From NCBI GenBank assembly GCA_021811105.1, contig JAJZPM010000004.1, positions 62,001 to 126,000 of the forward strand: a stretch of 64,000 nt of DNA, written 5' to 3'. Both the position numbers and the translations under genes were made by a program. How positions within the stretch are numbered: the stretch's first letter is position 1; every line of letters starts with the position of its first letter. Source of the DNA: Nitrospirota bacterium. Lineage in GTDB: Bacteria > Nitrospirota > Thermodesulfovibrionia > Thermodesulfovibrionales > UBA6898. Under the pieces are notes generated by a model. The model worked only from the letters and a program-made list of their open reading frames with translations, had not been told where the DNA came from and did not search any database. Positions 51,001-64,000 of this stretch are shown here, in pieces.

Positions 51001-51204
51001 CTTAATAAGATGCACTCCCCCAGCACAGGTGGCAAGGAGCGAAAGAAATATGATAACGTAAATAATCGGAAGTTGCAGTTTTATGAAGTTTCATCAATAC
51101 AGAACCCGTAAGAATATATCGTATTTTCCCCTCCCTTCTGACGTTGTTGCCGGTTGCAGGAGGAAAAGACTGGATCATTCGGCCTGCGGGTATGTGAAAG
51201 CCCA

Positions 51205-53022
51205 ATGAAGAAAAAGATCGTCATAGGACTAAGCCTTTTCTCTCTGATTTTTTTTATGGGGGGAATATACATCATCTTCACCGTCGAGAGGGCGACGTCG
51301 AAACTCGACAGGCTTATCACGCTCCACCAGGTCGAAATCTTGCGCGAGCACCTGCTGATAAGCATCAAGAGGGTACAGCAGGATATCGACCTCAAAGATA
51401 CCCGCTATGCAAGAGGAATGGACACCATCATGTCGGACGTGATGAGCATGAGCAAGACGGCGGATACCTGCTTCGACTGTCATCACGCTGAAGGAGTCAG
51501 GGAAAAGCTCGTCGACCTCAACAGCCATGTGGAAGAATATAGGAAGGCCGTAAGCAGGGTACTGACTATGAGGGCGAAGGCCGCGAGACAGGTGGCGGAA
51601 GAAGATGCGGCCTTCAGAATAGGTGAGGAGCTCACGGCTAAAGTGAACACGATCATCGCAATCGCAAGCAGCAATGTCGAGAAGAAAACCCAGTCGGCGA
51701 TGAAGGAGATCTCAGACACCAAGATCATTCTCTTTGCCTTAATTGGCATCGGACCCCTCCTGGCAACAGGCCTCACGTTCGTTTTTATCAAGGGCTTCAC
51801 CAGACCGGTAGACGTCCTTCTGCGCGCGATACGCAAATTGAAATCAGGAGATCTGGATTCCCGGATAGAAGGCCTGAAAGACGAGTTCGGAGAAGTGGCC
51901 GCCTCATTCAACGACATGACCTCATCTTTGAAAGAGCAGATGTACAAAATCGAAGAGAGCGAGATGCGGTACCGTATGCTTTTTGAAAGCGCCAAAGACG
52001 CCATTTTTATTATAGCGGCCGGGGGACAAGAGCCGGGAAAGATCGTTGCGGCAAACCGGGCCGCTGCGGAAATGCACGGATATACCGTCGAGGAGCTCAA
52101 GACCCTGAACATCGCCGACCTCGACGCACCCGGGGAGAGTGAGCACATCCCCGAGAGGATCGGACGGATACTCCGGGGCGAATGGATAAAAGCCGACATC
52201 ACCCACAGGAGAAGGGACGGGGCGGTGTTTCCGGTGGAGATCAGCGCAGGCCTGATCGAGCTGGGATCACAGAAATATATCCTGGCCTATGACAGGGACA
52301 TAAGCGAGCGCAAGAATGCGGAAGAGGCATTGCAGAGGTCGGAGCAGCTGCGAATGGTAGGAGAGCTGGCAGCAGGGCTTGCACATGAAATAAAGAATCC
52401 TCTGGCCGGAGTAAAGGTGTCGATCGACGTGATGCTCCAGGAACTGCCCCTTTCGCATGACGACAGGCAGGTCTTTCTCGGGGCCAGAGAAGAGCTCAAG
52501 ATGATCGAACTGCTGATTAAGTCCCTCCTTAATTTCGCCAAGCCGCCCAAGCCCCAATTTGCCGCTGTCAGAGTAAATAATCTCCTGAATACAATCATGG
52601 CGCTTTCCCTGAAAAATCCGTCGTTCTCCGCCATTCAGGTGACCAGGGACTACGAGGAAGATCTTCCGGAAATCATGGCCGACTCCATGCAACTGCAGCA
52701 GGTGTTCATGAATCTTCTTATCAATGCCGGCGAATCGATGACGGCCGGAGGGACGCTGACGGTAAAGACCTCTTCCGATAAAAGCAAAGGCCTCATCGAA
52801 GTGATAATATCGGATACCGGCAAGGGTATCGATGACAGTGCGCTACAGAAAATATTCGAGCCTTTTTTTACGACAAAGCCGAAGGGTACGGGGTTGGGGC
52901 TTGCGATCTCCAAGCGACTTATCGATCAGCACGGGGGCGCTATCTGCGCATCAGGTAATCCCGGCGGGGGGGCTTCCTTTATCGTCACGTTTCCCGTCGG
53001 GAAGTCCGGGGAGGCGCATTGA
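51205..53022 (+). CDS. Membrane sensor histidine kinase with a periplasmic CXXCH (heme c) motif
   Basis: The 605-residue kinase has TM1 (about 5-26), a periplasmic helical domain to about 178, TM2, HAMP (200-255), PAS (262-375), HisKA with GLAHEIKNPLAGVKVSIDVM, and a HATPase domain (NAGESMTAGG, DTGKGIDD, GTGLGLAISKRL). The periplasmic domain contains TADTCFDCHHAEG (Cys89, Cys92, His93), a c-type heme attachment site. Sensing of redox state or a gas is therefore likely. I use ATG 51205; a TTG at 51154 would add 17 residues. The response regulator gene overlaps its stop. Confidence 0.88.
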   Translation: MKKKIVIGLSLFSLIFFMGGIYIIFTVERATSKLDRLITLHQVEILREHLLISIKRVQQDIDLKDTRYARGMDTIMSDVMSMSKTADTCFDCHHAEGVREKLVDLNSHVEEYRKAVSRVLTMRAKAARQVAEEDAAFRIGEELTAKVNTIIAIASSNVEKKTQSAMKEISDTKIILFALIGIGPLLATGLTFVFIKGFTRPVDVLLRAIRKLKSGDLDSRIEGLKDEFGEVAASFNDMTSSLKEQMYKIEESEMRYRMLFESAKDAIFIIAAGGQEPGKIVAANRAAAEMHGYTVEELKTLNIADLDAPGESEHIPERIGRILRGEWIKADITHRRRDGAVFPVEISAGLIELGSQKYILAYDRDISERKNAEEALQRSEQLRMVGELAAGLAHEIKNPLAGVKVSIDVMLQELPLSHDDRQVFLGAREELKMIELLIKSLLNFAKPPKPQFAAVRVNNLLNTIMALSLKNPSFSAIQVTRDYEEDLPEIMADSMQLQQVFMNLLINAGESMTAGGTLTVKTSSDKSKGLIEVIISDTGKGIDDSALQKIFEPFFTTKPKGTGLGLAISKRLIDQHGGAICASGNPGGGASFIVTFPVGKSGEAH

Positions 53023-54416
53023 CCGGGACAAACAGCGGGAAAGTGTTCCTCGTTGACGACGACGATGTCATCGTATCGATGCTCAGCAGAACTTTAAAAA
53101 AAGACGGGTACGATGTCGATTCTGAAAGCAGAAAGTTCAGCGGCCTCGTCGACAGGATCAGGTCTTGGGGCCCCGATATCGTGCTGCTCGACATCAAGCT
53201 CGGAGAGTTAAGCGGCCTCGATGTCCTTGAGGAGATAAAAAGCAGAAAGGTGAACACGCAGGTCGTAATGCTGACATCCGACAACAACGTCGAAACAGGG
53301 GTCAGATGCATGAAACTCGGGGCCTCCGATTATCTGACGAAACCTTTTAATATCGATGAGGTGAAGATCGTCATAAGTAATATCATCGAAAAAGGGAGGC
53401 TCAGGAACGAGGTCGACTATCTGAGGGGCGTGTATTCCGAGTTCTTCCGCACTGAGATCATAGGGGAATCGACCGCCATAAAGGCACTCCGGGAGAACGC
53501 GGCAAAGATAGCCTCGGCAAAGGTCCCGACCATCTTAATCACCGGCGAGAGCGGCACGGGCAAGGAATTGGTTGCCCGATATATCCATAAGGGGATGCAT
53601 AACGACTCAGGGTCAGGATGCGTGCCCTTTATCGCGATCAACTGTACGGCGCTGCCTGAAAGCCTCCTCGAAAGTGAGTTCTTCGGTTATGAAAAAGGGG
53701 CCTTCACCGACGCGAAAACGGACAAAAAGGGGATCTTTGAGCTGGCCCACACCGGTACGATCCTCCTCGACGAAATCGGCGATATGAAACCCAGCCTCCA
53801 GAGCAAACTGCTGAGGGTACTTGAGGAAAGGTCGGTACGCCGCATCGGCGGGCATGAGGAGATCACTATCGAGGTAACGGTCATCGCAACCACAAACAGG
53901 GACCTCTCTGAAGCCGTTGAAACAGGGGACTTCAGGAAAGACCTCTTCTATCGGCTGAATGTCTTTTCTCTCCATATGCCGCCCCTCAGGGACCGGGCAG
54001 ATGACAGCCTGATAATGTCCGAATATTTTCTCGGTTATTTTGCAGAAAAATACAAAACAAGGAAGGTAAAAGGGTTTTCACCGCAGGCGGAAAAGGTTAT
54101 CCGTGGATACGGTTGGCCGGGGAATGTCCGCGAACTCAAGAACGTGATCGAAAGAATCGTGGTCCTCGAAAATGCCGAGATAATCACTCCCGAGCATCTG
54201 CCGAAGGAGATGAGCGGTTGGTCCGTTGATCAGGGACTTCCTGCAGCCAACAGGTTCCTCCTCCCTGACGGCGGGGTATCCCTTGACGATATAGAAAAGG
54301 ACCTGATCATACAGGCGCTGGAAAAAACGAACCACAACAAGACCCATGCGGCAAAACTTCTCAGGGTAAGTTACGACTCCCTGAGGTACCAAATAAAGAA
54401 GTTCGGGCTGGAGTAA
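53019..54416 (+). CDS. NtrC-family sigma54-dependent response regulator
   Basis: The 465-residue protein has a REC domain (FLVDDDDVIV, phospho-Asp in IVLLDIKLGE), an AAA+ domain and a Fis-type HTH (THAAKLLRVSYDSLRYQIKK). Walker A is GESGTGKE and Walker B is GTILLDEIGD. The sigma54 contact loop reads GAFTDA instead of the common GAFTGA. It starts at TTG 53019, overlapping the kinase stop, with GGGGAGG upstream. It should activate sigma54 promoters in response to the heme-type kinase. Targets are unknown; no clear -24/-12 promoter was found nearby. Confidence 0.92.
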   Translation: MTGTNSGKVFLVDDDDVIVSMLSRTLKKDGYDVDSESRKFSGLVDRIRSWGPDIVLLDIKLGELSGLDVLEEIKSRKVNTQVVMLTSDNNVETGVRCMKLGASDYLTKPFNIDEVKIVISNIIEKGRLRNEVDYLRGVYSEFFRTEIIGESTAIKALRENAAKIASAKVPTILITGESGTGKELVARYIHKGMHNDSGSGCVPFIAINCTALPESLLESEFFGYEKGAFTDAKTDKKGIFELAHTGTILLDEIGDMKPSLQSKLLRVLEERSVRRIGGHEEITIEVTVIATTNRDLSEAVETGDFRKDLFYRLNVFSLHMPPLRDRADDSLIMSEYFLGYFAEKYKTRKVKGFSPQAEKVIRGYGWPGNVRELKNVIERIVVLENAEIITPEHLPKEMSGWSVDQGLPAANRFLLPDGGVSLDDIEKDLIIQALEKTNHNKTHAAKLLRVSYDSLRYQIKKFGLE

Positions 54417-55811: not shown

Positions 55812-55911
55812 GACGATTTTCAAGACCGCCCTTTTGGTCTTTATGTCTATTAATTTCTTTTCCGCCCTTATCGCAAAAAGACGACTGCCGGCACAGCTAC
55901 GGGTTAATAAT

Positions 55912-57933
55912 ATGACCGAACGCGTCCGTCTGCGCTTCTTCATCTCCCTTGTACTGGTCGTCGCGACCTTCCTTATCTTCGCGAAGGTGGGAGGTCATGA
56001 TTTTATCTCCTATGACGACAACCTCTATGTTACCGACAACCAGATGGTGCAGGGCGGACTGTCCTGGAGCGGCTTTGTATGGGCCTTTACGACCGTACAC
56101 TCCGCCAACTGGCATCCCATTACCTGGCTGTCCCACATGCTCGATATGCAACTTTTCGGCCTTCGGCCGGGTGCTCACCATCTGGTAAATGTGCTTTTTC
56201 ATTCGCTCAATACGGTCCTTCTCTTTCTGATACTGGCACGTATCACCGGAGCAATATGGCGAAGCGCCTTTGTCGCGGCCCTGTTCGCGGTTCATCCGCT
56301 GCATGTGGAATCTGTTGCGTGGGTATCCGAGCGCAAAGATGTCCTGAGCACCTTCTTCGGTTTTTTGACCATCTGGGTGTACGTTCGCTATACAGAGCGA
56401 CCGGGCATGACGCGTTACCTGTGGGTGGTTCTCTTGCTTGTTCTCGGCCTCCTAAGTAAGCCGATGCTCGTGACCATGCCTTTTCTTCTCATCCTTCTGG
56501 ATTACTGGCCGCTCGGGCGAATGCAAGGCGGGGGTCAGTCCGTCACCGAATCGAATCCGGTCCGGCCAAAGGCGACCTTGTCGCAATTGCTTGTGGAGAA
56601 GATCCCGCTTCTTGTAATCTGTACTGCATCAGGCATAGTGACCCTGATCGCTCAGAAGAAGGGTGAAGCGATGGCGGACCTTTCCCTGGGCTTAGGGCTT
56701 CGCATTGCTAATGCGGCAGTCGGCTATGCACGATACCTCGGAAAGACCTTTTGGCCGGTGGGGCTGTCAATTTTTTATCCGCACCCCGGGGCAGGGATAC
56801 CGGTGTGGCAGGTGGCCGGGGCCTCTTTCCTTCTTCTTACGGTCACTGGTTTGGTCCTGATGAGGCTGAGGCAGTCCCCCTGGCTTGCAGTGGGATGGTT
56901 TTGGTTTATGGTAGCGCTCGTTCCGGTGATAGGAATTGTTCAGGTGGGGGCGCAGTCGATCGCCGATCGTTACACCTATATTCCACTCGTCGGGATCTTT
57001 ATAATGATAGCCTGGGAGGTCCCTGAACTGCTAAAGCGCTGGCGCATCGGTGCCCGGGCGCTCGGGATCGCATCAGCACTGGTGCTCCTTCTTCTGTCGT
57101 CTCTGACGTGGAGGCAACTCGACTTCTGGAAGAACCACGAAACCCTTTTCCGCCATGCGATCAGTGTAACAAAGGACAATTGCGTCGCCCTTAGCAGCCT
57201 TGCCGATTATCTCGCCAGGAAGGGTAATGTCGACGAAGCTTACAGCGACCTCAATGAGTCGTTGCGGCTCTGCCCGAAAGACGAAGAGGCCTGGTACAAC
57301 CTGGGCGTCTTACAACGGAACAGGGGAGAGATGGCAGAGGCGGAAAACTCCCTGCGCGAGGCGTTGCGGCTTAAGCCCCGATATACCAAGGCCTGGTCCA
57401 ATCTTGGCTCGGTATATATGGCACAGGGCCGAATGGCCGAGGCGATCGAAGCCCTTCTCGAAGCTGCGCGCGTCTCACCCGATGACGCTTCCGTCTGGTT
57501 CAACCTCGGCTTCTTATATGGAAAGAATGGGCAACCTGAAGAAGCGGTGGAAGCCTATTGCGAATCAGTACTGCTAAAGCCGGCCTACTGGGCGGCATGG
57601 AACAATCTTGGCATTACATATAAAAACTTAGGCCGGATATCCGAAGCCGCGGCAGCATTCGGACAGGCGGCGCAAATCCGGCCTGACGATCCAATGGCGT
57701 GGTACAACCTTGGGATCCTTTATGCAAACACCGGGGACTTCACTAAGGCAATCGGGGCTTTTCGCAATGCCGTAAGGGTAAGGCCGGACCATGCGGCTTC
57801 CTGGTACGAAATGGGCATGGCCTACTCTTCGATGGGAAGACAACAGGAAGCAGGCGAAGTGGTCCGTACACTGCAGTCTCTCGACCCCGGGCTTGCCGAG
57901 AAACTCAGTAGCCGCATAGGCCAGAGCAGGTAA
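55912..57933 (+). CDS. TMTC-like membrane glycosyltransferase with C-terminal TPR repeats (copy 1)
   Basis: The 673-residue protein (from ATG 55912; an in-frame ATG at 55834 is an alternative) has about ten membrane helices and then six or seven tetratricopeptide units (EAWYNLGVLQRNRGEMAEAE, KAWSNLGSVYMAQGRMAEAI). The first loop has the acidic motif FISYDDNLYVTDN, and ANWHPITWLSHMLD with HPLHVESVAWVSERKDVLS are conserved. This resembles TMTC/GT-C protein O-mannosyltransferases. A paralog lies 3 kb away on the other strand. It probably glycosylates exported proteins; the acceptor is unknown. Confidence 0.8.
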   Translation: MTERVRLRFFISLVLVVATFLIFAKVGGHDFISYDDNLYVTDNQMVQGGLSWSGFVWAFTTVHSANWHPITWLSHMLDMQLFGLRPGAHHLVNVLFHSLNTVLLFLILARITGAIWRSAFVAALFAVHPLHVESVAWVSERKDVLSTFFGFLTIWVYVRYTERPGMTRYLWVVLLLVLGLLSKPMLVTMPFLLILLDYWPLGRMQGGGQSVTESNPVRPKATLSQLLVEKIPLLVICTASGIVTLIAQKKGEAMADLSLGLGLRIANAAVGYARYLGKTFWPVGLSIFYPHPGAGIPVWQVAGASFLLLTVTGLVLMRLRQSPWLAVGWFWFMVALVPVIGIVQVGAQSIADRYTYIPLVGIFIMIAWEVPELLKRWRIGARALGIASALVLLLLSSLTWRQLDFWKNHETLFRHAISVTKDNCVALSSLADYLARKGNVDEAYSDLNESLRLCPKDEEAWYNLGVLQRNRGEMAEAENSLREALRLKPRYTKAWSNLGSVYMAQGRMAEAIEALLEAARVSPDDASVWFNLGFLYGKNGQPEEAVEAYCESVLLKPAYWAAWNNLGITYKNLGRISEAAAAFGQAAQIRPDDPMAWYNLGILYANTGDFTKAIGAFRNAVRVRPDHAASWYEMGMAYSSMGRQQEAGEVVRTLQSLDPGLAEKLSSRIGQSR

Positions 57934-58848: not shown

Positions 58849-60693
58849 TTACCTCAGCTCCTGCTTCCGTTTTACTGCGGCATCGAGGGCAAGGCGCGCC
58901 TCGGCCAACCCGGGATTAATACGTAGCGCCTCGGCGAAATGCCCAATGCCTTCGTCCAGTTTCCCCTGGCGCGCCAGCGCAATCCCCAGGTTATAGTGCG
59001 CTTCGGCAAAGTTCGGGCGTATGCGGAGCGCCTCGCTGAAATGCATGATGCCTTTTTCAAGGTCCCCCTGTGTTGCAAGGACAAGGCCCATACTGAAGTG
59101 AGTCTCCGCATTGTCGGCATTCACACGAAGTGCCTCGGTGTACTGATAAAGGGCGTCATGAAGCCTTCCCTGCTCCGCCAAGGCATTTCCCATATTGATA
59201 TGCGCGCCTTCATGGTCAGGATCCACCTTCAATACCTCCCAATATTGATCGATCGCCTCTGCAACCTTGCCCTGTTGCATGAGTGTAAAACCCATATTGA
59301 AATGCGCCTCCGCATCCCGTGGTCGTATGCGTAAGGCCTCGGTATATTGGGAGATCGCTTCATCGGGTCTGCCTCTCCTGGCCAGGGCATAGCCAAGACG
59401 AACATGGGCAATATCATTGTCGGGGACCGATTCGATAGCATGGCTGAAGAGAGTGATGCTGTTTCGCCAGTAGCCCAACTGCTGCCACGTTATAGCCGCA
59501 CATGCCAAAAGTGTGAGGACTCCCAGAGTGGACAGCACCAAGCGCCGATGTCGGTCCTGTCCCATAATAATAGGCGCACCCCATGCGATCATGATGAAGA
59601 GACCTATGAGTGGAACATACGTATAGCGGTCGGCCATGGACTGTCTGCCCACCTGTACCAGCCCGATAACAGGTACGAGCGTTCCGAGGTACCAAAGCCA
59701 ACCCATCAGCAGATAAGGATGTTTTCGTGCAAGACGGACCGTCGCAAACGACAGCACCGCCAGCACCAGGCCGGCAGATACCCCCTTCATAATTGATTCT
59801 GTGGAGGGTAGGGGGTAGATGACGGCAAGATGCAGCGGCCAGAACATCTTCCCCATATAGCCGACGTAGGCTGCCAGGGCGTTGATAATCCGTGAAAAAA
59901 ACGGCACCGTATCCAGAGAAGAGACAGCGCCGCCTTTGTACTGGACATAAATGGTTACAAGGCTGGAGGCGAATGAAAAGGCGATAAAAGGGATTTTTTC
60001 TATGATTAAAGGAGTGAAGACATTTTTTTGTCCTGACAAAAGTGAAGAGCCTTCCCGGATGGACGAAAACCTGCCGAGCGGCCAATAGTCCAGAAGGAAC
60101 AGCGTAAAAGGCAGCGTAACCAGCATCGGCTTGGACATAAGCCCAAGAACAAAGGCAGAAAGGGTCAACAGGTATCTCAATCTTCCCGGCTTTTCAACAT
60201 ATCGGACATAAAGTGTTAAGGTAAGCATCCAGAACAGCGTGCTTAAGACGTCCTTGCGCTCCGCCACCCATGCCACCGACTCCACATGAAGAGGATGCAG
60301 CGCAAACAGTGCCGCGACAAAGGAACTCTGCCAGTATGTACCGGTCAGCCCGTTGAGGAGAAGAAAAAGCAGGATAGCGTTGGCCGCATGGAAGACCACA
60401 TTCGTCAGATGATGTCCCCTAGGATTCAACCCGTAAAGCGATACATCGAGCATATGCGATACCCACGTCAGAGGATGCCAGTTACCCGCATGCCCCGTGG
60501 TGAACGCCCACTTGAGACCTTCGGGAGTCAATCCTGACGCTACGGCCGGGTTTTCGGTGATGTACCTTCCGTCATCGTAGTCGACGAAGTCATGGCCGCC
60601 CACCTGCCAGAAAATCGCAAGGGTGACCGCGAGCAGAAAGAGGCTCATTGATGCTCTTCGTATCAAGTCGGTATCTTCGGTAAAGGCCTTCAT
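58849..60693 (-). CDS. TMTC-like membrane glycosyltransferase with C-terminal TPR repeats (copy 2)
   Basis: The 614-residue protein (ATG 60693; an earlier frame start at 60744 spans a hairpin) is a paralog of copy 1. It has the acidic loop FVDYDDGRYITEN, GNWHPLTWVSHMLD, and HPLHVESVAWVAERKDVLS, about ten membrane helices, then five TPR units (DAEAHFNMGFTLMQQGKVAE, FAEAHYNLGIALARQGKLDE). The TPR part is less like copy 1 than the membrane part, so acceptor choice may differ. It should act at the inner membrane with the TPR domain facing the periplasm, as in TMTC. Confidence 0.8.
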   Translation of the reverse strand: MKAFTEDTDLIRRASMSLFLLAVTLAIFWQVGGHDFVDYDDGRYITENPAVASGLTPEGLKWAFTTGHAGNWHPLTWVSHMLDVSLYGLNPRGHHLTNVVFHAANAILLFLLLNGLTGTYWQSSFVAALFALHPLHVESVAWVAERKDVLSTLFWMLTLTLYVRYVEKPGRLRYLLTLSAFVLGLMSKPMLVTLPFTLFLLDYWPLGRFSSIREGSSLLSGQKNVFTPLIIEKIPFIAFSFASSLVTIYVQYKGGAVSSLDTVPFFSRIINALAAYVGYMGKMFWPLHLAVIYPLPSTESIMKGVSAGLVLAVLSFATVRLARKHPYLLMGWLWYLGTLVPVIGLVQVGRQSMADRYTYVPLIGLFIMIAWGAPIIMGQDRHRRLVLSTLGVLTLLACAAITWQQLGYWRNSITLFSHAIESVPDNDIAHVRLGYALARRGRPDEAISQYTEALRIRPRDAEAHFNMGFTLMQQGKVAEAIDQYWEVLKVDPDHEGAHINMGNALAEQGRLHDALYQYTEALRVNADNAETHFSMGLVLATQGDLEKGIMHFSEALRIRPNFAEAHYNLGIALARQGKLDEGIGHFAEALRINPGLAEARLALDAAVKRKQELR

Positions 60694-60708
60694 TGTCGCA
60701 CTCAGGCA

Positions 60709-60737
60709 CTTACGCACGGCAGGAAGCCGTGCGTAAG
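60709..60737 (-). promoter_or_regulatory. Perfect 12-bp hairpin just upstream of the second TMTC-like gene
   Basis: CTTACGCACGGC (60709-60720) and GCCGTGCGTAAG (60726-60737) flank an AGGAA loop. If translation starts at 60693, this is a 5'-leader hairpin 15 nt before the start codon. It could also be the end of the upstream cytochrome operon, but no T-run follows. Confidence 0.55.
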
Positions 60738-60753
60738 AGTCCATCCATATCTT

Positions 60754-61134
60754 TTATCTGCAGAGGGCCTTGAAAAGTTGACTCATGACGGGGTCGAGCT
60801 CCATCGCCCGCCAGTCTCCGAGTTCGTGAGATACCTGGGGAGGTTTGTTCCGCGACTCGATAATCACTTCACGCTCCCGGACGATCTTGTTCGCGCAGTC
60901 GACTTCCTCAAGGGAACTTGCGGCAGAACCGTCACTTCCAATCTCCCTGGTCCGGACCTCTTTCACGTCCTTCCCCAGGGGGATAACGCTCGCCGCATCG
61001 TAGAAACAACGTGCCCCCTTATCGGTCGAGGTCACGTATTTCCACTGATCATCGACCGCCGACGCCCTGCAGGGGAGGAACAGGACCGCCCCTGCAAGGA
61101 TGCCCAGCAGCAAACTTTTCGCGGTCTTCATCAT
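60754..61134 (-). CDS. Secreted surface-adhesin-E-like protein
   Basis: The 126-residue protein has a signal peptide ending near RASA. The mature part (YVTSTDKGARCFYDAASVIP, KEVRTREIGSDGSAAS) fits the small beta-rich Adhesin_E domain (surface-adhesin protein E of Haemophilus). Two cysteine pairs may form disulfides. The start overlaps the NHL gene stop, and it is the last gene of the cytochrome operon. The role in the operon is unknown. Confidence 0.7.
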   Translation of the reverse strand: MMKTAKSLLLGILAGAVLFLPCRASAVDDQWKYVTSTDKGARCFYDAASVIPLGKDVKEVRTREIGSDGSAASSLEEVDCANKIVREREVIIESRNKPPQVSHELGDWRAMELDPVMSQLFKALCR

Positions 61135-62036
61135 TTCACCAGCGTGTACACCTGGACGCGGCTGTTTTCCCTGTCTGCCACGAAGAAGACCCCGTTTTCA
61201 TTGATGGAAAGCTCAGCCGGATACCGGACAAGACCTTCTTTCCATCCGAAGACGATCGGGCGGCCCCTGAAAGAGCCGTCCGGTCCTAGGACCACCACGC
61301 CGCCGCCGTTCTGGTCGGCAAGGTACAATTGTCCCGTGTTGTCCACGGTCATGTTTGCGGGGAAATTCATGTCCTGCTCCATATCCTTCGTCACCGCAGA
61401 GAATCCCTTCGAGCCGTCTCCATGCGCCTCATATACCCTTGCGTCTGCGCCGTCGAGAAGATAAATGTCCCCCTTCTGGTCCACTGCAAGGTCCGTGATG
61501 AATCCGTACTTCTCCGGGAACGCCACCTGCCTCACGTACTTTCCCGAGGGATCAAGGACAAGGACGCGCCCGGAAAATACATCGAGGATATAGATATTGT
61601 CCGCGCCATCGATCTTGAAGCTCTTGGTGATAAACTCAGAAGGAGACGGCACGCCGGCAGGATCGATATACCCCTTGAAGGCGCCCTCAGGGGAAAGCCG
61701 GGCGATCCGGTGCAGTTTTCCGTCCAGGGCGAAAATATCGCCCTTGGAATTCATCTGCACCTTCACAGGGTCCGTCGCCTCCGCAACCTTGATCTCCTGC
61801 CCGCCCTTTACCGTCGAGCCGTCGACCGTGTATTTCAGCAGCCGGCCGTTTCCAGTATCGGCAACGACAAGGACATTCCCCCTGCAGGCGACACCTTCGG
61901 GGAGCTTCAACCCGTTCCCCTTGACGTCGCTATAGACCGAGGAACTGAAAATCATCTGCACCGCGGCGCCGAATGAGGCGGTCGCAAGCGAAAGCACGAA
62001 AACTACAACAACGATTTTTGCAGACGTTCTTGTCAT
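61131..62036 (-). CDS. Secreted NHL-repeat beta-propeller protein
   Basis: The 301-residue protein has a signal peptide (VVFVLSLATASFGAAVQ) and about six NHL repeats, for example LPEGVACRGNVLVVADTGNG, FITDLAVDQKGDIYLLDGAD and FPANMTVDNTGQLYLADQNG. It should be a periplasmic or surface propeller. NHL proteins often accompany multiheme cytochromes in metal-reducing bacteria and are thought to be scaffolds. GGGAGGTGATGCA precedes the ATG and overlaps the end of the 16-heme gene. Confidence 0.88.
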   Translation of the reverse strand: MTRTSAKIVVVVFVLSLATASFGAAVQMIFSSSVYSDVKGNGLKLPEGVACRGNVLVVADTGNGRLLKYTVDGSTVKGGQEIKVAEATDPVKVQMNSKGDIFALDGKLHRIARLSPEGAFKGYIDPAGVPSPSEFITKSFKIDGADNIYILDVFSGRVLVLDPSGKYVRQVAFPEKYGFITDLAVDQKGDIYLLDGADARVYEAHGDGSKGFSAVTKDMEQDMNFPANMTVDNTGQLYLADQNGGGVVVLGPDGSFRGRPIVFGWKEGLVRYPAELSINENGVFFVADRENSRVQVYTLVK

Positions 62037-62040
62037 TGCA

Positions 62041-63321
62041 TCACCTCCCTACCTGTTTGTGGCACTGGGTGCACATTTCATCCATCGGCGTAAACCAGAT
62101 GAAATGCTTGTTCTCGGTGCCGTGAGCCCGGTGGCAGCTTTCGCATGTTACGGCCACGTTCCTGTTCCTCGGATCCATGACTTTTTCACCGAGCGGGTGT
62201 CCGGTGTGGTTCCTCCAGTCGTGGCAGGTATTGCAGACGCCGATAATCGTCGGCTGGGCGAAGAGGAAATCCGCGTCCGACGCATGCGGGTTATGGCATA
62301 TCGTACAGTTGCCTTCCTGTATCGGCGGGTGTTTGGTCTGAGAGCGTTCCTGCCTCTGTATCGTATCGTTATGACACGTGTTGCAGAGCGGTATCATCGG
62401 CGCTCTCAGAAGTTTAGCCTGTGTCGATGCGTGCGGATTATGACAGTTCAGGCATCCTTTCTTGCCCAGCACCGGCCAGTGGATCTTGTTCTTGCCCAAC
62501 ATCTCATTGACAGCATTGCTGTGACATCCCCGGCATAACTCGTATCCGGGTTTCTTCGTTGCAAAGGGCGTCGACGACGAAGGGTCCATATGGCACTGGT
62601 TGCACATCCTGTTGGCAACCGGCTGATGCACGTTGTCGAAGAGGATCCCGCCCCTGTTGGACCCGTGAGGGTTATGGCAGGTCGTGCAGCGGGCTTTTGC
62701 AACAGGATAATTCATGTGCTGCTTCGCAAACGACGGCGCGTCCGTTTTGTGGCACCCGAGACAAAGAGAAGGCACGGCATCCACAAGAAGGAACGCCGAC
62801 TTTTCGGACGCATGGGGGTTATGACAGGTGAGGCATCCCTTCTCAACAGGTGCATGCCTGAACTTCACCTTTCCGACCGCCTCTCCCATATCTTTGTGGC
62901 AGCCGAAACAGAGCTCGTTACCCGCCTTCAGCAGATTGAACTTGTTCTTCGCGGAGTGCGGGTCGTGGCACTTAACGCAACCGCCCTCGACCACTACCTT
63001 GTGTGCGCTGACCGCATTTTTGGGGACCATCTCGCCGTGACATCCGGCGCAGACCTTGCTCACCTGTTCCGCAAGCATTTTTGCGTGCGAAGACGCATGG
63101 GGGCTGTGGCAGCCGGTACAGTCCCCGTTCTTCACGGGTGTATGCACAAAGGGGTCCTTCAGCTTGTCCTGGAAGTCCACGTGACAGTTCAGACAGATCT
63201 TCCCCTTTGCGCCCATTTTCAGTTTGAACCTGTTGTCCTCGGCATGGGCCGGGGCGGCGAGACAGACAAGCCAGACCACGGACAAGACGAGCGCATATCT
63301 ATATCGACGGTACAATTTCAT
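62041..63321 (-). CDS. 16-heme c-type cytochrome (doubled CXXCH type)
   Basis: ATG 63321 follows AGGAGAAGGT. The 426-residue protein has a signal peptide (LSVVWLVCLAAPAHA) and sixteen CXXCH motifs by direct count, about one per 25 residues. Most occur in pairs with the pattern CLTCHNPHAS or CLGCHK, typical of the doubled-CXXCH family that forms long heme chains. The spacing suits a heme wire in the periplasm or at the surface. It is the second gene of an operon entered from the right edge. Homologs carry electrons to metals, nitrogen oxides or partner cells; the acceptor here is unknown. Confidence 0.93.
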   Translation of the reverse strand: MKLYRRYRYALVLSVVWLVCLAAPAHAEDNRFKLKMGAKGKICLNCHVDFQDKLKDPFVHTPVKNGDCTGCHSPHASSHAKMLAEQVSKVCAGCHGEMVPKNAVSAHKVVVEGGCVKCHDPHSAKNKFNLLKAGNELCFGCHKDMGEAVGKVKFRHAPVEKGCLTCHNPHASEKSAFLLVDAVPSLCLGCHKTDAPSFAKQHMNYPVAKARCTTCHNPHGSNRGGILFDNVHQPVANRMCNQCHMDPSSSTPFATKKPGYELCRGCHSNAVNEMLGKNKIHWPVLGKKGCLNCHNPHASTQAKLLRAPMIPLCNTCHNDTIQRQERSQTKHPPIQEGNCTICHNPHASDADFLFAQPTIIGVCNTCHDWRNHTGHPLGEKVMDPRNRNVAVTCESCHRAHGTENKHFIWFTPMDEMCTQCHKQVGR

Positions 63322-63332
63322 ACCTTCTCCTT

Positions 63333-64000
63333 TCATCGCTTTTCCACCACATGGCATTCTTCACATGACCTCCCGGCAAAGGGAGGATGGACATTTTCCT
63401 TGAACAGTTTCGGGTCCTTCGACGCGTGGGGCGTATGGCAGCTCACACAATTCATCACCGCCGGATCGATCCCGATATGCGCCTTTCCGAAGGAGGCCCC
63501 CTTCAGGTCGTGACAGTCGCCGCAAAGTTGCAGGAGCGGCTGGGCAACAAGCCTCGGCTGTGACGAACTATGTGGTTTATGACACCGCAGGCAGTCGCTC
63601 GCTGCTGGAGGATGGGCCTTCTCCTTCTCCATCTTTGCCTTCAGGTCCTTGTGACAGGTCAGACAGAGATCAGGACCCTCGGCAACCCTCAGCTTGCTCA
63701 ATTTCGACCGGTGAGGATTATGGCACTTTGTGCATTGGCCGTTCACAACGGGCGAGTGTTTGCTCACCCCTCCCTTTATCGTTTCACCAAGCTCGCTATG
63801 GCAGGAGAAACAGAGTTTGTCCTGCCTCTCCATGGTCATGCCTACGTTGGGGCTTCCATGCGGGCTGTGACAGGTCAGGCACATCCCCTCTTTAAAAGGC
63901 ACATGAGTAGACCCGCCGCTGGTGCCTGCCTCTTTCATGAGGACCTTGTGGCATTGCGCACACAGCTTCGAGCCGGTCTCTTTCAGGAGCTTACTTTCAT
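63333..64000 (-). CDS. Multiheme c-type cytochrome, at least nine hemes (5' end beyond the window)
   Basis: The frame is open to the right edge, so the N-terminus and probably more hemes are missing. Nine CXXCH motifs are visible: CAQCH, CLTCH, CFSCH, CTKCH, CLTCH, CLRCH, CGDCH, CVSCH and CEECH, again with the CHSPHGS or CHKPHSS pairing. The ATG at 63938 is internal; coding sequence with a heme site (KLCAQCHKVL) lies upstream of it. The stop is 11 nt before the 16-heme gene start. The two proteins probably form one electron conduit. Confidence 0.93.
   Translation of the reverse strand, partial: ESKLLKETGSKLCAQCHKVLMKEAGTSGGSTHVPFKEGMCLTCHSPHGSPNVGMTMERQDKLCFSCHSELGETIKGGVSKHSPVVNGQCTKCHNPHRSKLSKLRVAEGPDLCLTCHKDLKAKMEKEKAHPPAASDCLRCHKPHSSSQPRLVAQPLLQLCGDCHDLKGASFGKAHIGIDPAVMNCVSCHTPHASKDPKLFKENVHPPFAGRSCEECHVVEKR

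Follow-up and report, generated by a model that had tools for sequence, protein, structure and literature searches.

Two multiheme cytochrome genes abut the right-hand end of the 64,000-nt stretch of DNA analysed here (the window; G000:C90:62001-126000, from a 3.94 Mb genome in 93 contigs) and raise the question of which electron-transfer system they belong to. The first-pass annotation had read them, together with genes for an NHL propeller and a small adhesin-like protein, as a four-gene operon that could serve extracellular electron transfer. All four ORFs are indeed present, lying close together on the minus strand (at 60754-61134, 61131-62036, 62041-63357 and 63333 to the edge). However, contig C90 extends 48 kb further, and on it the row of genes runs on for 12 kb past the window edge; the four genes are the 3' end of this cluster of ~11, and the presumed operon is thus the tail of a larger unit cut by that edge. 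Positions past 64000 are given in window numbering, from which the L003 coordinate is obtained by subtracting 64000.

The cluster is read throughout from the minus strand. In transcription order, it starts with a sigma-54-like site (76052-76067), followed by a propeller gene (75078-76031), a hexaheme gene of the OmcS family (73599-74861) and a broken tandem OmcS-type copy (72718-73468; L003:8718-9468). Next come, at the positions of OscD to OscH, a YVTN propeller protein (71082-72548), a putative 733-aa outer-membrane barrel (68908-71109), an LpoB/GNA1162-like lipoprotein (68256-68840, lipobox LSAC), a second lipoprotein (67079-68344, lipobox VGGC) and a PPIC-type isomerase (PPIase; 65329-67062). 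An OscI-type 26-heme cytochrome (63333-65315, of which 63333-64000 lies in the window; start at C90:127315; GSU2495 counterpart) and an OscJ-type 16-heme cytochrome (62041-63357; GSU2494 counterpart) precede the NHL beta-propeller protein (61131-62036), which closes the conserved block in the position of GSU2493. Last in the row is a 126-aa ORF whose start resembles a signal peptide (60754-61134), the gene first labelled adhesin-E-like.

The larger cytochrome, initially credited with at least nine hemes, is real, and exactly nine CXXCH motifs fall in the window part of its gene; nonetheless, the window edge truncates this gene, and the complete 660-aa protein encoded in C90 carries 26. The 16 CXXCH motifs attributed to its neighbor were all found in 62041-63357, bringing the pair, formerly put at 25 hemes or more, to 42. 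Motif counts of 26 and 16 are not explicable by chance, and both proteins matched the Paired_CXXCH family (E=3.4e-151 and 5.2e-89, respectively). Alignment of 22 orthologues of the 26-heme protein revealed that all 26 heme motifs and 25 further His are invariant, as would be expected of bis-His hemes, and all 16 motifs are likewise invariant in 24 aligned orthologues of the 16-heme protein. In the same-genus genome G374 (MAG Nitrospirae bacterium WY3.bin57), the one named relative recovered, the 26-heme protein is 98% identical, which places the host in Nitrospirota. Elsewhere in the genome, a 1988-aa open frame with several cytochrome c7-type stretches encodes a giant multiheme protein (G000:C31:27423-32594), and two frames of 400 and 375 aa (G000:C75:8503-9522 and C31:10155-11066) encode paired-CXXCH cytochromes of about MtrA-type decaheme size.

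The cluster hexaheme is a full-length homologue of OmcS (PDB 6EF8), matching it with E=9.6e-108 over 390 residues, that is, the whole mature length. In this alignment, the cluster protein has all six CXXCH motifs of OmcS and a His at eight further His positions of OmcS. OmcS uses 12 axial His, one of them supplied by the neighboring subunit (PMC6584659); the matched positions therefore make it very likely that all twelve axial ligands, the neighbor-subunit one included, are conserved. The tandem copy has suffered an internal loss of ~515 bp and a frameshift, and its counterpart in G374 is full-length; this could reflect either real decay or assembly collapse between near-repeats.

We then compared the cluster with described systems. 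Skennerton 2017 (PMC5539420) reported a core of 6-bladed propeller, 16-heme cytochrome, 26-heme cytochrome and PPIase from metal reducers and from sulfate reducers living in syntrophy (SEEP-SRB1, Ca. Desulfofervidus, Geobacter and Anaeromyxobacter). In SEEP-SRB1 that study detected no known porin, and the taxa it names are confined to Deltaproteobacteria and Thermodesulfobacterales. The same four genes are adjacent in the Nitrospirota cluster, which differs by its additional putative barrel and two lipoproteins. In Geobacter sulfurreducens, according to PMC12977616, the eight genes GSU2500-GSU2493 follow the hexaheme gene GSU2501 and are linked to OmcS maturation and secretion; along with omcS-omcT-oscC they make up osc, for OmcS companion (Shen et al. 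2025, as cited in PMC13194489 and PMC12977616). PMC13194489 equates oscI with GSU2495 and oscJ with GSU2494, and proposes roles in folding for OscH, in secretion for OscE/F/G and in morphology for OscD. Descriptions of the Geobacter genes further give 26 hemes for GSU2495, a lipoprotein for GSU2497 and a sensor kinase, GSU2507, in the neighborhood. In our cluster, an OmcS-type hexaheme is followed by the same number of genes, eight, in the GSU2500-GSU2493 order, with a lipoprotein in place 4, the 26-heme cytochrome in place 6, the second cytochrome in place 7 and a sensor kinase nearby. Protein types matched at every osc place for which these descriptions state the Geobacter type; several places (barrel, propellers) are not among them. 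The differences are the host phylum, Nitrospirota, the breakage of one of the two tandem hexahemes and an OmcS-type sequence clearly diverged from that of Geobacter. By gene content, gene order and OmcS homology, the cluster is most likely a member of the osc operons, the companions being likened by domain type, heme number and order. OmcKL, also considered as the closest system, was dropped, given that OmcK is GSU2203, a different gene.

Regulatory genes flank the cluster on both sides. A gap of 20 bp separates the end of the sigma-54 site TGGCATGGTGATTGCT from the first (propeller) gene downstream of it; since the pattern, with one mismatch allowed, is expected to yield 1.0 match per 20 kb, this single site is modest evidence. 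In four other loci of the cluster's own lineage (type A, see below), this gene is likewise preceded by a sigma-54-type site, which begins 20-38 bp before the predicted gene start. Within the window, the plus strand encodes a sensor histidine kinase with HAMP and PAS domains (51154-53022; PF02518, E=2.1e-24) and a sigma-54-dependent response regulator (53019-54416; PF00158, E=1.9e-64), and a second kinase/sigma-54 regulator pair lies on the other side of the cluster (87476-90308; L004:3476-6308). The sensor part of each HAMP kinase has one CXXCH, so a c-type heme may allow both kinases to detect redox state. The 51154-54416 pair is the candidate regulator and activator of the cluster. Two membrane proteins with TPR repeats and a weak match to PMT_2 glycosyltransferases are also encoded near the cluster (58849-60744 and 55834-57933); similar proteins occur near osc in L039, L040 and L046-L049, and they perhaps glycosylate surface proteins or are simply common in the phylum.

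The sequence data make it very probable that this Nitrospirota locus is an osc operon with its own OmcS nanowire gene and that its products would make, fold, export and electrically connect an OmcS-type filament. The heme-bearing sensor kinase and the sigma-54 activator would probably switch on the promoter before the first propeller gene. The OmcS hexaheme subunit would then be exported to the periplasm and loaded with heme. By analogy with the roles assigned in the Geobacter papers, the PPIase (OscH) would fold it and maintain its solubility, and the barrel and the two lipoproteins (OscE/F/G) would carry it across the outer membrane. Outside the cell, OmcS is predicted to polymerise into a filament, to or from which the 26-heme and 16-heme proteins most likely relay electrons across the periplasm and the outer membrane, both this wiring role and the direction of flow being inferred. 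The original proposal of an extracellular electron-transfer module was therefore right in kind: the right-hand neighbors, among which a search for a porin or further cytochromes had been suggested, include the putative barrel and the OmcS-family hexaheme, that is, a nanowire cytochrome with putative export and assembly genes.

The relationship of both large cytochromes to MtrA brings in a different reading of the locus. The best PDB match of the 26-heme protein is a chain of 6r2q (E=1.9e-32), which the 16-heme protein matches as well (E=1e-27). We take this chain to be MtrA of MtrCAB, its PDB molecule label being 'cystathionine beta-synthase'; this assignment agrees with the DmsE-family decaheme matches of the cluster cytochromes. 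On account of these matches, the two proteins are best viewed as long MtrA-like heme wires, and, like MtrCAB of Shewanella (PDB 6R2Q), they are built of MtrA/DmsE-like paired-heme repeats. MtrA sits inside the MtrB barrel, so the cluster might primarily be a conduit of the porin-cytochrome kind, as MtrCAB and OetABI are, with the 26-heme protein running in the barrel as an insulated wire and OmcS as one client of several. Indeed, the barrel and the cytochromes occur together in nearly all loci, even those without a near OmcS, and Murali 2023 (PMC10553843) treats a cassette with OmcS-like genes as the conduit OetABI, which by its description places a porin and large cytochromes beside OmcS-like genes, in a position analogous to omcS/omcT. 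On the other hand, the hemes number 26 and 16 as against 10 in MtrA, no adjoining MtrC was found, and neither the barrel nor any other protein in the genome has a Pfam match to the MtrB-type porins (MtrB/PioB, PF11854). Furthermore, OscE/F/G are proposed to be necessary for OmcS secretion (PMC13194489), and a PPIase plus two lipoproteins suit export better than conduction. We hence regard a primary conduit function as rather unlikely.

The barrel itself is a putative assignment, based on 20 aligned orthologues, a C-terminal aromatic residue and an excess of alternating hydrophobicity that is the clearest among the proteins of the cluster (z about 3); in one type B orthologue, z is only 0.9. 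An insert in this protein weakly resembles an F5/8-type C domain. A PDB search with the barrel profile returned no match at E<=1, and structure prediction from the single sequence yielded a pLDDT of 32. In the plasmid collection, there was no match to the barrel, and distant multihemes only.

To place the block within the phylum, the 26-heme protein was searched against 396 Nitrospirota genomes, of which 59 matched at E<=1e-50, ~47 of them with long and colinear matches. Most of the 32 regions fetched have the YVTN, barrel, lipoprotein, lipoprotein, PPIase, 26-heme and 16-heme genes in this order. It is not seen in full at contig ends, in three loci (L050-L052) that have some of these genes on the other strand, or in L053 and L049, which lack a recognisable barrel or PPIase next to the block. 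In L040 and L044, the ORF picker chose an overlapping frame over the 26-heme gene, which the genome search shows to be open. As for the four-gene order first proposed, conservation in relatives extends to the 26-heme, 16-heme and NHL genes but not to the adhesin-like gene.

The 16-heme tree resolved two groups with full support, separated by a very long branch. In terms of sequence, the phylum holds two deep osc lineages, types A and B, which are new here. Type A comprises the window, G374 and members of families f8, f12, f15 and f25, with OmcS encoded close by or at another place in the genome, and in most of its loci the NHL gene lies directly 3' of the 16-heme gene. OmcS (E<=1e-60) was detected in 17 of the 19 type A genomes versus 2 of the 377 others (Fisher p=1e-25, a value that ignores kinship and overstates independence because the genomes are related). 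Type B, present in about 28 of the 396 genomes, has two LpoB-like lipoproteins and, after the 16-heme gene, no NHL gene but a hexaheme and then a 6-9-heme cytochrome. A sigma-54-type site lies upstream of this hexaheme in several loci. In the tree, the window sequence stands beside one from a different family (support 94/90, just below the starred threshold), and the same-family genome G182 falls in type B; this placement is suggestive of recent horizontal transfer. Type B 26-heme matches in G190, G294, G246, G366 and others contain one stop codon in the matched span, possibly at match ends.

Type B loci carry the block without a close OmcS homologue, as would be expected if the window genes were an independent module of undefined electron-transfer role, lying beside OmcS by chance. 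Against such independence, type A and OmcS occur together almost without exception, and the type B block itself adjoins a distant OmcS relative: the only PDB match of the type B hexaheme profile is OmcS (E=4.2e-21). We therefore consider a chance association very improbable. The type B hexahemes (L055-L067, the gene 3' of the 16-heme gene) also show a conserved heme-like motif of unusual spacing, CX5CH, in 10 of 12 sequences, replaced by CX4CH in L064 and CX3CH in L063; this CX3-5CH motif sits at about OmcS heme 3 and is a candidate heme site. Tentatively, and with some doubt, we propose that the two lineages are ancient versions of nanowire assembly, type B serving an undescribed filament of a distant OmcS-like hexaheme with the CX5CH site (CX3-4CH in two sequences). 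The 26-heme and 16-heme partners would be unchanged between them, and the 26-heme protein may form one long wire linking the periplasm with the filament.

The remaining window genes fared unequally. The NHL propeller was confirmed at 61131-62036 (PF01436, E=1.7e-19). In contrast, the 60754-61134 ORF matched no Pfam family, Surface-adhesin E included, at E<=0.1, had no counterpart beside any other cluster in the 32 Nitrospirota regions, and no homologue in G374, whose contig stops just past the NHL gene. An adhesin-E protein as a functional component was accordingly rejected, and the 126-aa ORF is probably a passenger outside the system. The adhesin-like partner had been singled out as foreign to described conduits; the rest of the set is in fact already described (PMC5539420; PMC13194489 and PMC12977616), and the adhesin-like gene is incidental to it. 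Finally, a soluble multiheme reductase of the nitrite, tetrathionate or sulfite type, unrelated to extracellular electron transfer, can be practically dismissed: the heme repeats do weakly match NrfB, NrfH and octaheme nitrite reductase, but over short stretches and far below MtrA, and the right-hand neighbors, where a nitrite or tetrathionate reductase had been envisaged as the contrary outcome, encode no catalytic subunit, but the OmcS cytochrome and its putative export and assembly proteins.

What a filament would bring to its host is a matter of debate, since studies cited in PMC13194489 found that Geobacter could reduce Fe(III) oxide and grow on anodes without OmcS; the benefit is therefore disputed. 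OmcS filaments and their assembly genes are known chiefly from metal reducers of the Desulfuromonadales type and from the bacterial partners of archaea that oxidise methane. With a complete osc-like set and OmcS in an uncultured Nitrospirota bacterium, electron exchange through nanowires becomes a prediction that can be tested concretely in this phylum. Moreover, the tight association of the block with a hexaheme in many genomes, together with a type B partner outside the known range of OmcS, offers a route to new cytochrome filaments through their assembly genes.
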